DNA of 64,000 nt, taken from positions 1-64,000 of the forward strand of contig JAMCPM010000016.1 of NCBI GenBank assembly GCA_023382335.1, in the 5' to 3' direction. How positions within the stretch are numbered: position 1 is the first letter of the stretch; every line of letters begins with the position of its first letter. The stretch comes from Actinomycetota bacterium. GTDB taxonomy: Bacteria; Actinomycetota; Thermoleophilia; BMS3ABIN01. The position numbers were made by a program, and so were the translations under genes. The notes under the pieces are model-generated. The model did no database searches, was not told the DNA's origin, and was given only the letters and a program-made list of their open reading frames with translations. Below, piece by piece: positions 22,268 to 32,366 of the stretch.

Positions 22268-22363
22268 GGGAGGGCAGGGGTCTGGTGGCCCAGCTGGTCT
22301 TCAAAACCGGTAGGCGGCGGTAACCCCGTCGTTGGTAGGTTCGATTCCTACGCCTTCCCGCCA
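22268..22363 (+). tRNA. selC: Selenocysteine tRNA (anticodon TCA)
   Basis: A 96-nt gene with encoded CCA. The acceptor stem has 8 bp (GGGAGGGC with GCCTTCCC, one G-U pair), as in bacterial tRNA-Sec. The D-stem is GGGTC/GGCCC. The anticodon loop CTTCAAA carries TCA at 22301-22303 between CTGGT and ACCGG. A long variable arm and the T-arm GTAGG-TTCGATT-CCTAC follow. It reads UGA and pairs functionally with selA and selB just upstream. Its 3' 65 nt are repeated downstream at 25669-25733 (64/65 identical) and its last 32 nt, diverged, at 24838-24869, marking it as an integration target. Confidence 0.95.
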
Positions 22364-22476
22364 ATAATTTCTGTTGCAGGAACGCTCTTGACATTCTGGT
22401 ATACCCATGAGCACTATATCGCCACGTTGAGTATTACCTCTTTTGACAAAGTCATACGGGAGTTGGGGAGACCTGC

Positions 22477-24777
22477 ATGAGTTCGGCAACAATTGCGCGT
22501 AATGGTCATGCTCGCTTGGCGAAGCTTCTACTGGTCGCCATATTTTTTGCGATCCTCAGCCTTTTTTCATCATCGCCGGTTTTTTCGGCTACGTCATATT
22601 TCCTTCGTGATGACGCGACCGGAGGCAGTTGCAGCCAGATCGGAGTCTGGGATCCCGGCACAAAAACCTGCACTCTCAGTAACGATATGAACAACGGGAT
22701 TGAAATAGCGGATAACGGTTTGACGCTGGATGGCAACGGACACACCATTTATGGTCCCGGGTCCTCTTACTGGCCGAATTATTACGGCGTCTATCTGAGC
22801 GGCAAAAGCGGCGTCACTGTCAGAAACGTAACGCTGCGTAACTTCTATACAGGAATCAAGCTCGTGTCCTCATCCCAGAACGTAATTACCACTAACATCT
22901 GCTCGAACAACAGCGAGGGCCTTCTTGTCGACCAGGGCTCGAATGACAACCAGATATCCGCCAACAGCCTGACTAACAACTGGAACGGTCTGGACGTGAA
23001 CCTCTCCAATGGAAACCAGCTGACCGGCAACAGCGTCTCTGGCAGCAACAGTTTAGGGATTTATCTTCACTCCGCCGGCGGCAATCACCTGACCGACAAT
23101 CATTCCTGGAACAATGCCAGCGGCATGGTCCTCAACGCCGCGGGGCCTGACAACAGTCTTTCGGGGAACAATATGGAGGGCAATACCAGCAACTTTTCTG
23201 TCGAAGGCGCGGTAGACGCCGACTTTGCCAACGACATAGATACCAGCAATCTAACGGCGGGCAGACCTATTCTTTACGTTCGCGACGCCATCGATCAGGT
23301 TTACGATGCCTCGACCAACGCCGGAACGTTCTTCTGCATCCATTGCGACGGGGTCACCATCAGGGATCTCACGCCAGCGGGCAACCATTCCGGGATATAC
23401 CTTTGGAATACCACCAACTCCCGGATAGAGAACATCAATTCGACTGCCAATAGTAACGGGATTCTACTCAATTATTCTCAGGGCAACATCATCAGCGGCG
23501 GCGCTTCAGGCCGGGACGGAATGGGAATCGGGCTTTATAACTCGGATGGCAACCAGATCTCTTCACGGACATTTAACGGAAGTTACAATGCCATATGGGT
23601 GGAAAATTCCGGGAACAACAACATCTCAGCCAATACCATTTCGGACAGCCGTCAGAACGGCATCTCCCTCCGCTACCTCAAAAGCGGCGCCAATAACATA
23701 AGTGGCAACCATATCAACGGCAGCACGCTCTACGGAATCTGGATGGCTGGCGGCTCCGGCAATACACTTCGGGATAATCTCATGACCGGCAGCAAGTATA
23801 ACTTCTGGCTGGATGGTTCCAATGCCACGGACTTCGATCAGGACATAGATGTCAGCAACCTCGTCGACGGTAAGCCTGTTTATTACGTCAGAGATGCAAG
23901 TGGTTTGTCGTATGGCGCTGAGACAAATGCCGGTGTCTTTTATTGCATAAGTTGCAACGGAGTGACCATCTCGGATCTGACACTTCAACATAACGGCAAC
24001 GGCGTCAGGCTGGTCAACAGCAACAATATGCAGATCAAGAACATCGAGGCGAATTACACCATCGCGGGGATAGAGCTTCAAGGTTCAAGCGGGAATATCA
24101 TCACAGGCTCATCGATGGAAAACAACGAGTCCGGCATCTGGATGCTATACAGCAGCGATAACAATACCGCTACCGGAAACATGGTAAGGAACAATCAGAC
24201 CGGCATCTATATTTACTATTACAGCACCGGCAACCTGTTCTACCGCAACAATATAATCAGCAACTCGGCGCAAACAAATATCATCTACCATTCGGACGGG
24301 AATTCTTTCAGTCAGCCATCGCCGGCGGGCGGGAATTATTGGAGCAACTGGAAATCACCCGATGCCAATAACGACGGTTTTGTCGACACCCCGCTGAGCT
24401 TCACTGGCGGACAGGACAATCTGCCCTGGGCAAGGCCGTACGGCTGGTGGTGCGGGAAGCCGGGACTCAATCTCTACGTGGGTTCGGTCTACTGGAGTTC
24501 TTTTTATGACTACATTTATGACCGTTTGTCAGTCGCATTCATAATCACTAATGATGGTCCGCCGGCATCTTCGCTCAAAATCGAACAGATCGTGGTATCG
24601 AACGGCGTGGTTGCCGACGCAGCTTTTCCTGTCAGCCTGGCGGATATTCCGGCGTCGGGCCGCGTGTACGCTACCGTCACTTATGTAATTCCTCAAGGCG
24701 TGAATTCTTTCAGCACCAGGGTCTACGCGTCCGCTGTTGATCCATGTAATGAGCGATTCGAGTATCCAGGCCAATAG
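22477..24777 (+). CDS. Secreted right-handed beta-helix protein (NosD-like repeats)
   Basis: A 766-residue protein starting at ATG 22477 after TTGGGGAGACCTGC. An N-terminal signal peptide (hydrophobic about 16-34) is followed by many turns of roughly 22-24 residues rich in Asn, Ser and Gly (GNGHTIYG, VTVRNVTLRNF, NVITTNICSNNS types), typical of right-handed parallel beta-helices. Two related insertion blocks (DADFANDIDTSNLTAGRP and DFDQDIDVSNLVDGKP) separate three helix sections, so the protein is an internal duplication. The C-terminal 100 residues (VYWSSFYDYI; VIPQGVNSFST) match the C-terminal module of the multicopper oxidase at 238-2436. It sits directly after tRNA-Sec within the inserted segment. 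Probably a surface adhesin or carbohydrate-active protein. Confidence 0.85.
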   Translation: MSSATIARNGHARLAKLLLVAIFFAILSLFSSSPVFSATSYFLRDDATGGSCSQIGVWDPGTKTCTLSNDMNNGIEIADNGLTLDGNGHTIYGPGSSYWPNYYGVYLSGKSGVTVRNVTLRNFYTGIKLVSSSQNVITTNICSNNSEGLLVDQGSNDNQISANSLTNNWNGLDVNLSNGNQLTGNSVSGSNSLGIYLHSAGGNHLTDNHSWNNASGMVLNAAGPDNSLSGNNMEGNTSNFSVEGAVDADFANDIDTSNLTAGRPILYVRDAIDQVYDASTNAGTFFCIHCDGVTIRDLTPAGNHSGIYLWNTTNSRIENINSTANSNGILLNYSQGNIISGGASGRDGMGIGLYNSDGNQISSRTFNGSYNAIWVENSGNNNISANTISDSRQNGISLRYLKSGANNISGNHINGSTLYGIWMAGGSGNTLRDNLMTGSKYNFWLDGSNATDFDQDIDVSNLVDGKPVYYVRDASGLSYGAETNAGVFYCISCNGVTISDLTLQHNGNGVRLVNSNNMQIKNIEANYTIAGIELQGSSGNIITGSSMENNESGIWMLYSSDNNTATGNMVRNNQTGIYIYYYSTGNLFYRNNIISNSAQTNIIYHSDGNSFSQPSPAGGNYWSNWKSPDANNDGFVDTPLSFTGGQDNLPWARPYGWWCGKPGLNLYVGSVYWSSFYDYIYDRLSVAFIITNDGPPASSLKIEQIVVSNGVVADAAFPVSLADIPASGRVYATVTYVIPQGVNSFSTRVYASAVDPCNERFEYPGQ

Positions 24778-24792
24778 CGGATAAATGAACTG

Positions 24793-24819
24793 GAAGGGAA
24801 CGAAGACCTCCTTCCCTTC
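24793..24819 (+). terminator. Hairpin after the beta-helix gene
   Basis: GAAGGGAA and TTCCCTTC pair over an 11-nt loop, followed by GAATACTTTTA. The stem starts 15 bp after the stop codon. Confidence 0.6.
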
Positions 24820-24837
24820 GAATACTTTTAGATCGCA

Positions 24838-24869
24838 TTGGCAGGTTCGATTCCTCCGCCTTCCCGCCA
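24838..24869 (+). repeat. Diverged copy of the tRNA-Sec 3' end (att-like)
   Basis: TTGGCAGGTTCGATTCCTCC plus GCCTTCCCGCCA corresponds to the T-arm and acceptor 3' strand of tRNA-Sec, with two substitutions that break the T-stem once. It separates the beta-helix gene from the sortase-like gene and looks like an attachment-site remnant of an older insertion. Confidence 0.8.
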
Positions 24870-24935
24870 GTATCTTGGGGATGCCGATGGAAAAAGCGCC
24901 AATGGGTATAATAAGAAAAAGGTAAGGATGCTCTT

Positions 24936-25607
24936 GTGAACGGACATATTGGAAGCGATAAAAAACTCACCATCCTCATTGTTCTATTATCAAATTTCGT
25001 GTTTTTTCTCTCAGTCATTCTTCTATTCGCTCTTGTCCCTGGTTCAAGATTCTGGAATCAGCAATCTCATGATGAAGTTGAATACAAATTTGACCAGGGC
25101 GTTGAAGCTGCCGCCGAACCAAACAGAAATATGGTTTCTTCTCTTAAGAACATGTCAACTACACAAATCCTTCGGACATTGGCAGTTAATCAAAAGGAGC
25201 CGAGCAATGGATCACCAATTGCAAGATTGGAGATTCCAGCAATTGATTGCGAAGTAATTATCGTTGAAGGTTCGGGGAATGATTCTATGGATTTGGGTGC
25301 TGGCCATTTAGAGGGAACGCCTTTACCAGGCAATGGTGGAAACTTCGCTGTCGCGGCTGATCGTTACGTCGGTGCAGCACCGTTTAAGAATCTGGAAAAA
25401 ATCAAATCAGGTGACAATTTGGACTTGATGACCACATACGGAAGATTCGAGTATGAAGTCAACAATATTTTCACGGTTAAACCTGAAGATGTTCAAGTTT
25501 TGGAACCCGTCGGTTTCGAAACAATTACTCTTATCACTACGGATCCTTCAGGCCGCCTCATTGTTAGGGGCAGGTTAGTGCAGGCCAATCTGTTAGATAA
25601 TACGTAG
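24936..25607 (+). CDS. Degenerate sortase-fold protein lacking catalytic His and Cys
   Basis: A 223-residue protein read from GTG 24936 (AAGGA upstream), with one N-terminal membrane helix (11-34) and a sortase domain: LEIPAIDCEVIIVEG, GAGHLEGTPLPGNGGNFAVA, FKNLEKIKSGDNLDL and RLIVRGRL follow the family pattern closely. However, the catalytic His expected in the GHR motif is D142 (AADRY) and the Cys of TLxTC is T202 (TLITTDP), so it should not be a transpeptidase; the equivalent of the conserved Arg (R207) remains. Composition is much more AT-rich than the surroundings. It lies between two copies of the tRNA-Sec 3' end, indicating acquisition by integration. It could be a scaffold or regulator, or a decaying gene under weak constraint. 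Confidence 0.8.
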   Translation: MNGHIGSDKKLTILIVLLSNFVFFLSVILLFALVPGSRFWNQQSHDEVEYKFDQGVEAAAEPNRNMVSSLKNMSTTQILRTLAVNQKEPSNGSPIARLEIPAIDCEVIIVEGSGNDSMDLGAGHLEGTPLPGNGGNFAVAADRYVGAAPFKNLEKIKSGDNLDLMTTYGRFEYEVNNIFTVKPEDVQVLEPVGFETITLITTDPSGRLIVRGRLVQANLLDNT

Positions 25608-25668
25608 ATTTAGCATTTGCACGAATTCCTCCGAATTCTTGAGCCAACATAGATCGACCCGCACGCAA

Positions 25669-25733
25669 CTTCAAAACCGGTAGGCGGCGGTAATCCCGTC
25701 GTTGGTAGGTTCGATTCCTACGCCTTCCCGCCA
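25669..25733 (+). repeat. Near-perfect copy of the tRNA-Sec 3' 65 nt (attR-like)
   Basis: From the anticodon loop to CCA this is identical to 22299-22363 except one base (TAATCCC instead of TAACCCC). The 5' half of the tRNA is absent, so it is not a second tRNA gene but the distal attachment site of an element that integrated into tRNA-Sec. No integrase lies between the copies. Confidence 0.88.
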
Positions 25734-26410: not shown

Positions 26411-29400
26411 TCAAAAGCCTTTGCCTACCAACTCGTTGAAATAACCATTCCAAAGGACGCGCTGCGACGCAAATATTTCGGTGGGCGTCGTATGGCCGGG
26501 ATCGTCCCATGCCTTCACTTCAACCGGGCCCGCCATGATACCGGGGAATGTTGGAGTCACGTTACCAAAGGCCGGAATCGCGCCAGACCACCGCGTTATT
26601 CCCGCAATCTTTATCTCTGCATAGATGCTTCGATCGCTATTCAGATTTGAGAGCAGGACCCAGTTTGTCGTTCCGGGGTTGGCATTGTCATACCAGGTCC
26701 AGTTGGCGTTACTTCTGAAATCGCCATATCCTGAAATTTCGCTGAAGGAAGGTCCCCAGATGACCCGTTGGGTCGCGTATATGTTCGGGCCCAGATTACT
26801 GCATGATGGATCTGAACAGCTTATCGCGGCGACGGGCCCTCCCATTCCAGCGGGATCTCCACGCGGAACCTGCACCGATTGAGTCTCATTCGCGGGTATA
26901 TATCCTTGAAAAACAATGTCTTTTCCTACCAGCACCACTACATAAGTGGTCTGAGGGTTGGGATTACCTATGCAGATCCAGTCCGAAGCGCCCGGACTGT
27001 TATTGTCGTACCACGTCCAGAACCAGCCGGAAGACAACTGCCAATCAGGTATCCCCGGCATCTCATTGAAGGCACCGTTGTTCAACACGCGCTGTGATGC
27101 GATCAACTTGCGGGGGTCTGTGTCTTCATTCCCACCTTGCTTCCAAGCTTTGACCTCGACCGGCCCGCCGGATCTGCCCGCATAGATCGGAGTCCAAGAC
27201 TGGCCGGGAGCCAGGTCCCTGGTCTCAGAGATGTCTGGGTTAGCATTCCTTACTGTCACGCGCACCCTGATGTTCTCGCCATTCTCGGTAGGATTGGCAA
27301 CGAGTATCCAGTTCCTCATACTTGCACCGTCATACACCGGCCAGAAATAGTGAGAATCCAGATGTTCGAAAGACACCCCCCAGACCTCCTCAAAGGAATT
27401 TCCAAATAACGACCTCTCACTGATTAAGGCCTGCCCGTTGTTTGTGTTAACTCGAATGGGACCGCCCATGATGCCGGCAAAAAACATGGGCACCGTGCTG
27501 CCGCCGTGGACAACAACTCCTTTGGCTAGCGGGCTGACGCCCATTAATGAGTCGATTGAGTTATCCGCGGCTCCTGTCGGGTTGGCCCCCAAAATCCAGG
27601 TGCGGCCTCCCTGATTGTCGTACCAGGGAAAGTAATAACTGTAGAAATCTGGAGCTGTGTAAGTCCAGTCCGCTGTCTGGACATTGCCGACATTGTCGCT
27701 GATCTCCAGGTGAATATTTTGACCTTTTCTCCCGGAATATTTAAAGGAAATGTGGTCTGCCGCAATGGTGGCATAGGGAGTCGCATCGTGCCCGTTCACA
27801 GTTAATTTTGCTGAAACAGGATTTATTCCAGAATCAGCATCTGAATAATAAGCACTGACTGTGGAGGTCCGAGTCGTGACTGTCCCGGTCGGAATCATGT
27901 TACTAATTGTGGGCGCCGCGGAATCGACGCTAAAATTATTGGAGACAGATGAAGAGTTCCCCGATTCGTCCTGCGCATTGACTGTCACCGAATGAAGACC
28001 TGACGCAAGACCCGTTACGGGGCAGCCGATGCTGGATGAGCCGACCGAGCATCCGGCAAGCTGTTCGCTTGAACCATCGAGGTACATGGATGCTGTTGCT
28101 GTGTTAATGCCTGAACCGGTATCGCTCAGGTTGGCGGTTATGTTGGTGCTTGCTTTCGTCCATCCAGTAGGAGATATTCCTGAAATGGAAGGAGCTGTCA
28201 GATCGACATCAAAAGAACCCGCACCGTATCCATTCGTGCCCGCATTGGTGATGTAGTTGATCACTAGATTATGATGGCCTTCCGCCAGGCCGGAAACGGG
28301 ACAGTCAACGTGCGCTGAGGTAAGCGAGCAACTTGAAAGAGCGCTGCCATCCAGGTAGACGCTTATGGAGGCAGCATTGATACCAGAACCATCGTCACCC
28401 AGATCGGCGGCGATGTGGGTATCTGGTGTGGTAATCCAGCCTGAAGGGGTTACGTTGCTTAGCACTGCTTCAACGCCAAAACCGCCAGTAGCTGAGCCCC
28501 GGTTCCCGGCGTTATCCGTCGCAGAGATACTGACCGTATGTTGGCCCGCGCTCAGACCCGTTACGGGGCAGCCGATGCTGGATGAGCCGACCGAGCATCC
28601 GGCAAGCTGTTCGCTTGAACCATCGAGGTACATGGATGCTGTTGCTGTGTTAATGCCTGAACCGGTATCGCTCAGGTTGGCGGTTATGTTGGTGCTTGCT
28701 TTCGTCCATCCAGTAGGAGATATTCCTGAAATGGAAGGAGCTGTCAGATCGACATCAAAAGAACCCGCACCGTATCCATTCGTGCCCGCATTGGTGATGT
28801 AGTTGATCACTAGATTATGATGGCCTTCCGCCAGGCCGGAAACGGGACAGTCAACGTGCGCTGAGGTAAGCGAGCAACTTGAAAGAGCGCTGCCATCCAG
28901 GTAGACGCTTATGGAGGCAGCATTGATACCAGAACCATCGTCACCCAGATCGGCGGCGATGTGGGTATCTGGTGTGGTAATCCAGCCTGAAGGGGTTACG
29001 TTGCTTGCTGGGATCGTCTTTGCGTAGGACCAGACTCCGTTGTCAGCACCTGCAAACACCATACCGTCACTGGCAAAGCCCGGCGAGATGGCAATGGAGG
29101 CAATGTTCGTACTGGGAATTCCTGTTAATTCCTTCCATGTCGCGCCCGCGTCAGCCGACATATAAACGCCGTATTGGCCGCGAACAATAACAGTTTGATC
29201 CGTTGCAAAGCTCGGCGAGAGAGCAACAGATTTAGCCATCGAACTGAACCGCCGATTCCAGCTGGCGCCACCATCTGTTGATCTATAGAGACCGTAAAAC
29301 AAAGAAGCCGCATAAAGAGTATGGTCATTGGTAAAGTCGGGCGAAACGGCAACAGACAAGATAATATTTGGAGCCAGGCTGAGTCCGTTGCTAACCTGGT

Positions 29401-30073
29401 TCCAGCTTGAGCCCGCATCAGTCGATTTAAAGACACCGCCGCTCTCAGTTCCGGCAAAGAGGGTATGGTCGGTGGCAAAGCCTGGGGACAGGGCGACAGC
29501 CAGAACTTGAATACTGGTCAGTCCGCTGGAAACGTTTCCAGCCGCGTTCCAGCTTGAGCCCGCATCAGTCGATTTAAAGACACCGCCGCTCCCAGTTCCG
29601 GCAAAGAGAGTGTTGTCTGTGGCAAAGTTTGGTGATAAGGCGACAGCCAGAACTTGCGTATCGGTCAGTCCGCTGGAGACGTTTCCAGCCGCGTTCCAGC
29701 TTGAGCCCGCATCAGTCGATTTAAAGACACCGCCGCTCCCAGTTCCGGCAAAGAGAGTGTTGTCTGTGGCAAAGTTTGGTGAGATCACCAAACTCATAAC
29801 CTGCGTATCCGTCAGTCCGCTGTAAACGTTCCCGGCCGCGCTCCAGCTTGAACCGGCATTGATCGTTTTGAAAACACCGCCGTTCAGAGCTCCAGCAAAG
29901 ATGGTATGGTCTGTGGCAAAACAGGGCGAGGGGGCAACTGAGTCAACAACACCACCATTGGGGCCATTGGATGTCCACGTCCAATTATCCCCTCCCGCCA
30001 AACCGGTCGCAAACAGGACAAAGTACAAAAGAATCAAACCAAATAACACGCTAATTTGCTGTCGCAGTCGCAA
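26411..30073 (-). CDS. Giant secreted repeat protein: BNR-type propeller, Ig-like repeats and four YDN-repeat modules
   Basis: About 1,220 residues. TTG 30073 is chosen because GAGGGG lies six bases upstream and it begins directly before a signal peptide (MRLRQQISVLFGLILL); the longer frame to 30106 has no ribosome site. Order: six or seven BNR/VPS10-like repeats (GGVFKSTDAGSSWN; SPNFATDNTLFAGT) up to about residue 375; five beta-sandwich repeats with DDGSGINAASISVYLDG and DTGSGINTATASMYLDG; then four modules with the pattern W-x-YD-x-W-I-x-NP and GGPVEVKAW, ending SQRVLWNGYFNE. Two of the beta-sandwich repeats are duplicated perfectly at DNA level. Likely displayed outside the cell; no anchor or sorting signal is visible at the C-terminus. 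Confidence 0.85.
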   Translation of the reverse strand: MRLRQQISVLFGLILLYFVLFATGLAGGDNWTWTSNGPNGGVVDSVAPSPCFATDHTIFAGALNGGVFKTINAGSSWSAAGNVYSGLTDTQVMSLVISPNFATDNTLFAGTGSGGVFKSTDAGSSWNAAGNVSSGLTDTQVLAVALSPNFATDNTLFAGTGSGGVFKSTDAGSSWNAAGNVSSGLTSIQVLAVALSPGFATDHTLFAGTESGGVFKSTDAGSSWNQVSNGLSLAPNIILSVAVSPDFTNDHTLYAASLFYGLYRSTDGGASWNRRFSSMAKSVALSPSFATDQTVIVRGQYGVYMSADAGATWKELTGIPSTNIASIAISPGFASDGMVFAGADNGVWSYAKTIPASNVTPSGWITTPDTHIAADLGDDGSGINAASISVYLDGSALSSCSLTSAHVDCPVSGLAEGHHNLVINYITNAGTNGYGAGSFDVDLTAPSISGISPTGWTKASTNITANLSDTGSGINTATASMYLDGSSEQLAGCSVGSSSIGCPVTGLSAGQHTVSISATDNAGNRGSATGGFGVEAVLSNVTPSGWITTPDTHIAADLGDDGSGINAASISVYLDGSALSSCSLTSAHVDCPVSGLAEGHHNLVINYITNAGTNGYGAGSFDVDLTAPSISGISPTGWTKASTNITANLSDTGSGINTATASMYLDGSSEQLAGCSVGSSSIGCPVTGLASGLHSVTVNAQDESGNSSSVSNNFSVDSAAPTISNMIPTGTVTTRTSTVSAYYSDADSGINPVSAKLTVNGHDATPYATIAADHISFKYSGRKGQNIHLEISDNVGNVQTADWTYTAPDFYSYYFPWYDNQGGRTWILGANPTGAADNSIDSLMGVSPLAKGVVVHGGSTVPMFFAGIMGGPIRVNTNNGQALISERSLFGNSFEEVWGVSFEHLDSHYFWPVYDGASMRNWILVANPTENGENIRVRVTVRNANPDISETRDLAPGQSWTPIYAGRSGGPVEVKAWKQGGNEDTDPRKLIASQRVLNNGAFNEMPGIPDWQLSSGWFWTWYDNNSPGASDWICIGNPNPQTTYVVVLVGKDIVFQGYIPANETQSVQVPRGDPAGMGGPVAAISCSDPSCSNLGPNIYATQRVIWGPSFSEISGYGDFRSNANWTWYDNANPGTTNWVLLSNLNSDRSIYAEIKIAGITRWSGAIPAFGNVTPTFPGIMAGPVEVKAWDDPGHTTPTEIFASQRVLWNGYFNELVGKGF
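28008..29006. repeat. 453-bp direct duplication within the giant repeat gene
   Basis: 28008-28460 and 28554-29006 appear identical base for base with a 546-bp period. The copies encode two beta-sandwich repeats each. Further upstream in the gene (29390-29800) the BNR repeat is triplicated at near identity. The lack of synonymous divergence implies recent duplication or gene conversion. Confidence 0.9.
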
Positions 30074-30326
30074 CCTTAACCCCTCAATAGCATAGATTTC
30101 TAACAAAAAGGAACTATTTTATAAACGTGATTGGATTAGTAATGTTCCACCGAAATGACAGTTTTGTCAACCAGTTATCAATATTGAAAGACCTGTCATA
30201 TTTGAAATTTGTGGTGATGGATAACCTTACACAGGAAGTCAAACGCTAACAATTTGCCCAAACAGAAGGAACCCATTTTTGATCACATCAGCCAACATCA
30301 AAACCGGCTGCCCCATCACAGGATTT

Positions 30327-30644
30327 CTACATAGCCTCGACTAAAAAATTATTCTTGCTGTTGGCCGAAACCAGTATCTGAGTGACATCGACAAACAACC
30401 TGCCGCCAGTTTTGAACCTAGGCTTTAGGAGCGCTAGCTGATCGAGTAGTTCGTCAAGCAGCGGCGCTTCCCCGATGATCCTTCTAAAGGCTTCGGTAGA
30501 AATGCAAAAGCCGTCCGGCACGCGTATTCCTTCAGTCCTGGAAAGTTCCCCCAGGTTCGCGCCTTTACCCCCGGCAAGCATCTGTTTGGTTTTGTCGATC
30601 TCCTGAAAATCGAGTACATAGGAACTCACAAGTTTTCTCTCCAT
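30327..30644 (-). pseudogene. PEP-synthase-like gene remnant with internal deletion
   Basis: About 105 residues from ATG 30644. The first part (SYVLDFQEIDKTKQ, MLAGGKGANLGELS, GIRVPDGFCISTEAFRR) is the N-terminal ATP-grasp start of PEP synthase or rifampicin-phosphotransferase-like proteins, normally 750-870 residues. It then jumps to GGRLFVDVTQILVSA, which resembles a segment several hundred residues further on, and stops. An in-frame internal deletion plus loss of the rest explains this. No ribosome site precedes it, and a transposase remnant abuts it. Confidence 0.7.
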
Positions 30645-30704
30645 GTCGCACAGGGAGCTGTGCCCCCTCTCTTTGTTGTAGTAATCGAAGAACATCCTGA
30701 AGCC
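30645..30704 (-). mobile_element. Transposase (integrase core) C-terminal remnant
   Basis: In the same frame just upstream of the PEP-synthase remnant are the residues CGFRMFFDYYNKERGHSSL, typical of the end of rve-type transposases of the IS3/IS481 kind (F-x2-YN-x2-R-x-H-x-SL). Only about 20 codons remain. It marks an insertion that probably truncated its neighbour. Confidence 0.6.
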
Positions 30705-30748
30705 GCATTGGACTGCAGCAGCAATAGTATCAGATGAGTTTTGCCTGC

Positions 30749-32149
30749 TCAGTGCCGGAAGCTGTGCCCCGACTTTTTTGGCTTGTGCTCGGGGTGCGCC
30801 TTGAACCATTCCATGTGCCGCTCGAAGTCGCCCAGCAGCAGGTCCGCCAGGTCGCGGTTGAACCCTTCCTTGACCACAATGCGCAGGGCCGCTATGTGTT
30901 CACAGTTTTTAGGGAAGGTGTACGCCGGCAACTGCCAGCCCCGGTCTCGAAGCCGCTCCGACATGTCGAAGACCGTATAATTCGTTGATCGTTCCGCTTC
31001 TTTTGTCATCCTGAATGCAAACACGGGAATGTCGCCGCCGTCAGTGATCAGCTCGATCTCCTTGTATCTGGCGAGCCTGCCGGAAAGATATAGCGCCACG
31101 TCCTGGCTGGCCTGGTGGATGCGCCGGTATCCTTCTTTCCCCAACCTGAGGAAGTTATAGTACTGCGCTACTATCTGGCTGCCGGGCCGGGAGAAATTCA
31201 GGGAAAAGGTGGGCATCTCACCACCGAGGTAGTTCACTTTGAATATAAGTTCCTCGGGAAGGGCGTCCTGGTTGCGCCAGATGATCCAGCCGACTCCGGG
31301 ATAGACCAGACCATATTTATGACCTGAGGCATTGATCGACTGCACCCGTGGCACGCGAAAATCCCACTCCAGCTTCGGCTGCAGGAAGGGGGCAATGAAA
31401 CCGCCGCTGGCGCCATCCACGTGGATCGGTATGTCCAGACCCTTCTCCTCATGCAGCCGGTCGAGCGCGGCGCCGATCTCGCTGACCGGCTCATAGCTGC
31501 CGTCAAATGTGCTGCCCATGATGGCGAGTACGGCGATGGTGTTCTCATCGCAAAGACCGGCAGCCTCCCCGGCGCCCAGGTGGTAGCGGCCCTCTTCCAT
31601 GGGTACATAGCGCGGCTCGATGTCCCAGTAGACACAGAATTTCTCCCAACAAACCTGCACGTTAATTCCCATTACCATGTTGGGCCTGTTCGCGGTCTTA
31701 CCCTCGGCCTCGCGCCGCTGGCGCCACCGCTTCAAGAGCGCCATGCCGCCTAGCATGGCCGCCTCGCTGGAGCCGATTGTGGATGTGCCGACCGCCTCTT
31801 CGTCTTCAGGCGAGTTCCAGAGCCGGGCGATCATGTTGACGCAGCGCGCTTCTATTTCCGCCGTCTGGGGATACTCATCCTTGTCGGCCAGGTTCTTGCT
31901 GAAAGTCTCCTCCATCAGCCGGTCGGCTTCAGGCTCCATCCAGGTGCCGACGAAGGTGGCCAGGTTCAACCGGGCGTTACCATCGAGCATCAACTCGTCG
32001 TGGACCAGGTAATAGGCGGTTTCGGGCAGCATCTCAGCCTCAGGCATCTCATATTTGGAAACACGGGCTTCCATAGCCCCGCGGGCAAAGGCGGGAGTTA
32101 GCATTTCGCTGCCTGATCCAAGTTCACTTATTTTTTTCTTTTTGTGCAC
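30749..32149 (-). CDS. gadB: Glutamate decarboxylase
   Basis: A 466-residue PLP decarboxylase converting glutamate to GABA with consumption of a proton. It has VGTSTIGSSEAAMLGG, IHVDGASGGFIAPF, the PLP-lysine box NASGHKYGLVYPGVGW and a His near the C-terminus as in GadB. Length is normal. The start ATG 32149 is followed by KKKK, and a good Shine-Dalgarno is not obvious (AAAGGTGATTCGTGC precedes). No GABA antiporter (gadC) is in the window, so the physiological role may be GABA supply rather than acid resistance. Confidence 0.95.
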   Translation of the reverse strand: MHKKKKISELGSGSEMLTPAFARGAMEARVSKYEMPEAEMLPETAYYLVHDELMLDGNARLNLATFVGTWMEPEADRLMEETFSKNLADKDEYPQTAEIEARCVNMIARLWNSPEDEEAVGTSTIGSSEAAMLGGMALLKRWRQRREAEGKTANRPNMVMGINVQVCWEKFCVYWDIEPRYVPMEEGRYHLGAGEAAGLCDENTIAVLAIMGSTFDGSYEPVSEIGAALDRLHEEKGLDIPIHVDGASGGFIAPFLQPKLEWDFRVPRVQSINASGHKYGLVYPGVGWIIWRNQDALPEELIFKVNYLGGEMPTFSLNFSRPGSQIVAQYYNFLRLGKEGYRRIHQASQDVALYLSGRLARYKEIELITDGGDIPVFAFRMTKEAERSTNYTVFDMSERLRDRGWQLPAYTFPKNCEHIAALRIVVKEGFNRDLADLLLGDFERHMEWFKAHPEHKPKKSGHSFRH

Positions 32150-32366
32150 GAATCACCTTTTCTCCGATTGATTGAGTCCAATGGCGTTATATATCCCCTG
32201 TAAAATAATTGTGTAACCCAAGGAATAGCCGGAATATGTCTCTCTCCAGTTGGGCTCTTTTCATACTTTTGGCAGTGTAGCATCCGCCAAACTGATAGTA
32301 TGGTCCATGACATGCGCAGTATGCCTCGTGGCAAGAGAACTATTTTCATGGTGACTGGGTCAACTC

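Follow-up and report, generated by a model that had tools for sequence, protein, structure and literature searches.

A cysteine-less sortase-fold protein in a tRNA-Sec cassette, and a Thermoleophilia lineage of sortases with aspartate at the histidine position

The window analysed here, which is the whole stretch of 64,000 nucleotides from contig JAMCPM010000016.1 of an Actinomycetota bacterium (assembly GCA_023382335.1), carries two cassettes directly downstream of an intact tRNA-Sec gene, and the main gene of the second cassette codes for a sortase-fold protein without the catalytic cysteine. This gene is called the window copy in the following, and sortases that have an aspartate in place of the catalytic histidine are called Asp-type. 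The features of the locus, all on the + strand, are these:

22268 to 22363, +: intact tRNA-Sec gene (anticodon tca), the presumed integration target, with selA and selB upstream
22364 to 24869, +: first cassette, coding for a 766-aa secreted NosD-type beta-helix protein (ORF 22477-24777)
24838 to 24869, +: short copy (32 nt, 94%) of the tRNA-Sec 3' end, which bounds the sortase cassette on the left
24870 to 25733, +: second cassette, with the candidate pseudo-sortase gene as its main gene
24936 to 25607, +: candidate pseudo-sortase gene, GTG start, 223 aa, N-terminal membrane helix and sortase beta-barrel domain
25305 to 25307, +: His124 of the GxGH motif, invariant in 30 of 30 Asp-type sortases and also kept in the window copy
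25359 to 25361, +: codon 142, GAT, Asp, at the catalytic His position of other sortases by alignment with relatives
25365 to 25370, +: codons 144-145, Tyr-Val, which are Val-Leu in every Asp-type relative
25539 to 25541, +: codon 202, ACG, Thr, at the catalytic Cys position, found in the window copy only
25554 to 25556, +: codon 207, CGC, Arg, at the catalytic Arg position on beta8, kept
25669 to 25733, +: copy of the tRNA-Sec 3' half (65 nt, 98%), right boundary of the sortase cassette

Partial copies of tRNA-Sec thus flank the sortase gene on both sides, and the number of such matches expected by chance downstream of the intact gene is 0. The region of the sortase cassette has a G+C content of 43% as compared to 59% for the window. 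Several copies of the 65-nt core with shared flanking arms are found in four genomes of the same genus (G001, G003, G005 and G006), and more diverged copies in two further genomes (G009, G011); the left arm of the copy at 25669-25733, GACCCGCACGCAA, is similar to the left arm of the array copies in these relatives. The cargo of the arrays in the relatives comprises NosD-type, ice-binding LPxTG, glycosyltransferase and signalling genes, and in G005 the stretch that follows the last copy is matched by the window starting at position 32214, a sign of a shared right flank. A Pfam phage-integrase search found no phage-type integrase on the array contigs, and the arrays thus carry no integrase of their own that this search detects. 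The earlier note on this DNA had suggested a pseudo-enzyme, or a new chemistry, on a mobile segment beside a surface-protein gene, and the mobile segment and the neighbour are now well supported by the flanking partial tRNA-Sec copies and by the adjoining cassette with its secreted NosD-type beta-helix protein, while the pseudo-enzyme itself is a matter of probability that is weighed below.

Cassettes in tandem, with 65-nt copies of the tRNA-Sec 3' half between them, occur at 22268-25733 of the window and at six loci of relatives (L122, L123, L124, L127, L128, L132). They share a left arm (AACAGAAGGCAAGACCCGCACCGAA) and, in part, a right arm (TTTGCCTGCTAATTGGCATATTCTGC), and in this organization they resemble an integron-like array that is built on a tRNA site. 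Further downstream, on the minus strand, the window codes at 26411-30106 for a secreted protein of 1231 aa that has Sortilin/BNR and Ig-like repeats and whose gene has nearly identical duplications within it (300 nt at 92%, and 241 nt in three copies). Also on the minus strand, the match of a 160-aa ORF at 30327-30809 to the PPDK N-terminal domain is limited to positions 3-50, and this ORF, where the variable region ends, is likely a fragment of a gene.

The reading frame of the window copy is uninterrupted, with no stop and no frameshift. Pfam Sortase (PF04203) matches residues 98-215 with an E-value of 9.6e-23 and 80.7 bits (cut-off 26.6), covering the full 125-position profile, and an AlphaFold2 model made with a 42-row alignment has a mean pLDDT of 91.9. 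Its best PDB match in Foldseek is sortase E of S. avermitilis (5go5), with a TM-score of 0.79 by target length, and the helix that the model predicts at residues 8-69 is consistent with membrane anchoring. Pfam, AlphaFold2/Foldseek and the alignment with relatives hence all bear out the earlier reading of a sortase fold with Asp for the catalytic His and Thr for the catalytic Cys. The motif around the former is FAVAADR, and AADR is found also in L035, a relative that has kept its Cys; the beta7/beta8 loop that connects residues 202 and 207 is shortened in comparison to the relatives and is devoid of their invariant Trp. The protein therefore belongs to the sortase superfamily by sequence and fold and has the catalytic Arg, but as the catalytic Cys at the end of beta7 and the catalytic His after beta4 are both missing, two of the three catalytic residues fail and it should not be named a sortase enzyme.

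The two replacements have very different histories. Among 19 genomes of the same bacterial family, a lineage of the Thermoleophilia, there are 30 sortase-like proteins besides the window copy, and each of these 30 combines Asp in place of His with the usual Cys and Arg. Outside of the family, His-Cys-Arg was found in 33 of 33 homologues that belong to other families within the class Thermoleophilia and in 62 of 62 sequences examined from a phylum-wide search, and thus His is present in 95 of 95 sequences when the two samples are pooled, with a few genomes counted in both. Cys is present in all 125 other sequences that were compared, and Thr at this position is found in the window copy alone. 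Since the Pfam Sortase search in the 19 family genomes gives exactly 31 matches, which coincide with the places of the 30 Asp-type proteins and the window copy, there is no His-type sortase in these genomes that this search detects. In the maximum-likelihood tree, all Asp proteins form one clade (support 100/98) that comprises three paralogue clades, and a single state change suffices to explain the Asp. The Asp lineage has seven fixed columns that are uncommon among the His-type sequences, namely F137, D142, V144, L145, L151, D203 and, within the beta7/beta8 loop, a Trp; its only invariant His is that of GxGH. When 84,980 species genomes were scanned with the lineage motif, which detects motif-carrying sequences only, 24 loci were found, and the records in which they lie were named Thermoleophilia, Gaiellales or Actinomycetes bacterium plus one uncultured and one unclassified bacterium. 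To judge from these sequences, the exchange of His for Asp is an old lineage-wide change and no decay of the window gene. A joint loss of both catalytic residues, as proposed in the earlier note, is ruled out by the residue census and the tree: the exchange of His is ancestral to every sortase of the family, which, the window copy aside, all keep Cys and Arg, and the two losses are separate events, so that one of the two odd residues is simply normal for the Asp lineage.

Are the Asp-type sortases working enzymes? From conservation and context we infer that they probably are, with a Cys-Asp-Arg triad, because Cys and Arg are invariant and the genomes have no His-type sortase, yet most of them have LPxTG genes. 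LPxTG signals above the TIGR01167 cut-off were found in 17 of the 19 family genomes, although this short model also matched archaeal controls and single matches are weak. The genome of the window itself encodes a 165-aa secreted protein with a C-terminal LPNTG, a hydrophobic stretch and basic residues. In clade 3, a gene with LPNTG or LPKTG lies just downstream of the sortase gene in four loci (L014, L017, L034, L035), and an ECF sigma/anti-sigma fusion gene adjoins in the loci that were read (L083, L208, L209, L080, L091), its domains being assigned by Pfam for L083 and by similar sequence for the other four. A PGTG-tailed protein is encoded near the sortase in L080, and no LPxTG-type neighbour gene was seen in L091. 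The same five loci can be described as a conserved locus in its own right, in which a fusion of an ECF sigma factor with a zf-HC2 anti-sigma domain is encoded beside an Asp-type sortase and, in most cases, a small LPxTG protein.

In the genome of the window, the clade 1 gene adjoins capsule-type genes (Bac_transf, CpsB_CapC). The clade 2 members that were examined, in this genome and in G001, lie upstream of a large ORF, which in the former is an O-antigen ligase gene that adjoins the sortase gene. The N-termini of clade 2 proteins (L003, L036-L042) look like lipoprotein signals (e.g. AGCG), in place of a plain membrane anchor. As to the substrate, a Tyr in the beta3/beta4 loop of SrtE1, a class E sortase, has been proposed to recognise LAXTG (PMC5148588); this position is Ile, Leu or Met in the Asp lineage and Leu125 in the window copy, which, as read from the alignment, is consistent with LPxTG substrates of the Asp lineage. 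The ordinary Asp-type members would most likely still anchor LPxTG proteins, with Asp replacing the usual His and possibly aided by the invariant GxGH histidine; since 85 of 95 His-type sortases have GxGH too, its recruitment as a general base is no more than a possibility. The searched open-access literature contained nothing relevant on sortases with Asp for His or on dead sortases, and as far as this literature shows, the lineage with a Cys-Asp-Arg triad is an undescribed sortase variant.

The window copy lies inside the Asp clade as sister to clade 1 (95/76), and its end branch is as long as 0.85 changes per column in the maximum-likelihood tree. It has kept 22 of the 27 lineage-invariant columns, and the five that it lost are V144, L145, L151, C202 and the loop Trp. 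All of these except C202 are among the seven lineage-specific columns, of which F137, D142 and D203 are kept, and the four may well lie near the active site, judging by where they stand: next to D142, elsewhere in that segment, or in the loop that follows C202. The closest relatives have TGC or TGT as Cys codon and the window copy has ACG, which differs at all three bases and rules out a sequencing error at this codon. In a neutral simulation in which a comparable gene drifted to 50-60% identity, with all divergence taken as neutral and indels ignored, only about 1-2% of the runs stayed free of stops. Most of the divergence of the window copy could nevertheless predate the loss of the Cys. The frameshifts and relaxed selection that had been named beforehand as signs of a decaying gene are, as far as this is testable, not seen, as there is no stop or frameshift and the invariant residues that were lost are active-site residues only. 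Homologues sharing D142 and T202, for which the earlier note had suggested a search, were found in no genome or collection searched, and nor was a second copy of the gene; viral contigs contained no relatives. Plasmid records gave only matches below 60% identity, of which those listed with names are ordinary sortases. As a singleton in a variable hot spot, the window copy may be transient.

Among known sortases, those of class E (S. coelicolor SrtE1, 5cuw; S. avermitilis SrtE, 5go5; T. fusca SrtE, 9iok) are among the best folds for the window protein, and class E also gives the top NCBIfam score of the named sortase classes. Shared features are the membrane-anchored barrel and the Arg on beta8, but the window protein lacks the catalytic Cys, has Asp for His and the above-mentioned Leu125 for the Tyr of SrtE1, and with 82.2 bits it misses the class E (NF033747) cut-off of 160 bits, for which the Cys-containing relative L002 scores 118.7. 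Sortases of classes C and D (S. pneumoniae SrtC, 3g66; C. perfringens SrtD, 4d70) have the same fold, and 4d70 is the best PDB sequence match of the window protein (E 2e-20) and also the structure whose fold L004, a Cys-containing relative, matches best, but the window protein scores below the cut-offs of both classes. The Asp-type relatives (L002, L003, L004, L014 and others) share with it GxGH, the Arg, the Asp in place of His and the D-P that follows the Cys position, but they keep the Cys, the Val-Leu after D-R and the loop Trp, all of which the window copy has lost.

It is probable, though far from certain, that the window gene encodes a pseudo-sortase that acts by binding and that comes from an Asp lineage whose ordinary members most likely still anchor LPxTG proteins. 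In such a history, the window copy would have branched beside the housekeeping clade and moved into the tRNA-Sec cassette, and it would have lost the nucleophilic Cys together with most of the residues that had been fixed along with the Asp, while the fold and the Arg were kept. Because the nucleophilic Cys is lost, a thioacyl intermediate would be impossible for this protein, and from this we infer inactivity and a role in binding: it would, for instance, hold or compete for sorting signals, or pair with the cell's own Asp-type sortases. A motif scan found no LPxTG tail on the neighbouring NosD-type protein or on the 1231-aa protein. An unlikely account, though one of some weight, is that of a recently inactivated passenger, an Asp-type sortase that was caught in the cassette, lost its Cys and now drifts without function. 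A single copy in one genome, a G+C content and codon use unlike those of the adjoining selA and selB, the long end branch and the location in a hot spot whose contents differ between species all fit such a passenger, but its 223-codon frame is intact, not one base of the Cys codon remains, and among the invariant residues only those of the active-site set were lost and all others kept, even if most of the divergence could still predate the loss. Taken together, the open frame, the selective losses of invariant residues and the simulation favour retention for the fold after catalysis had been given up over decay.

It is improbable that the whole Asp lineage, and not the window copy alone, has a sortase fold that is catalytically dead. 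Every family member is without the His that has been stated as required in S. aureus SrtA (PMC5148588), but Cys and Arg are invariant in 30 of 30 proteins across three paralogue clades, new residues have been fixed around the active site, and LPxTG genes adjoin several of the Asp-type sortase genes in genomes that have no other sortase. Highly improbable is an active enzyme with a new chemistry, with Thr202 or another residue as nucleophile or with a different reaction in the sortase groove: Arg207, Asp142, His124 and the fold are kept and Thr offers a hydroxyl at the position of the nucleophile, but the window copy has lost residues that its Cys-containing Asp-type relatives hold fixed around the site, by general enzymology a Thr that is internal and sits where a strand ends makes a poor nucleophile, and the change to Thr is found in no other copy.

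A pseudo-sortase that acts by binding would not be the first dead fold in sortase biology, as SipA of Streptococcus pyogenes, which has a dead peptidase fold, is essential for a sortase pathway (PMC4049620). SipA is a precedent of an unrelated fold and its role is experimental, whereas that of the window protein is proposed; the window copy is nevertheless a comparable candidate for a dead member of the sortase fold, residing in a mobile cassette. The His-Cys-Arg triad of sortases is treated as required, and the Asp lineage is a direct test of the role of the histidine and of whether a carboxylate can stand in for it. Tentatively, this Thermoleophilia lineage may anchor its LPxTG proteins with Cys-Asp-Arg sortases, and may in addition have evolved a mobile Cys-less pseudo-sortase that would bind sorting signals or the active sortases.
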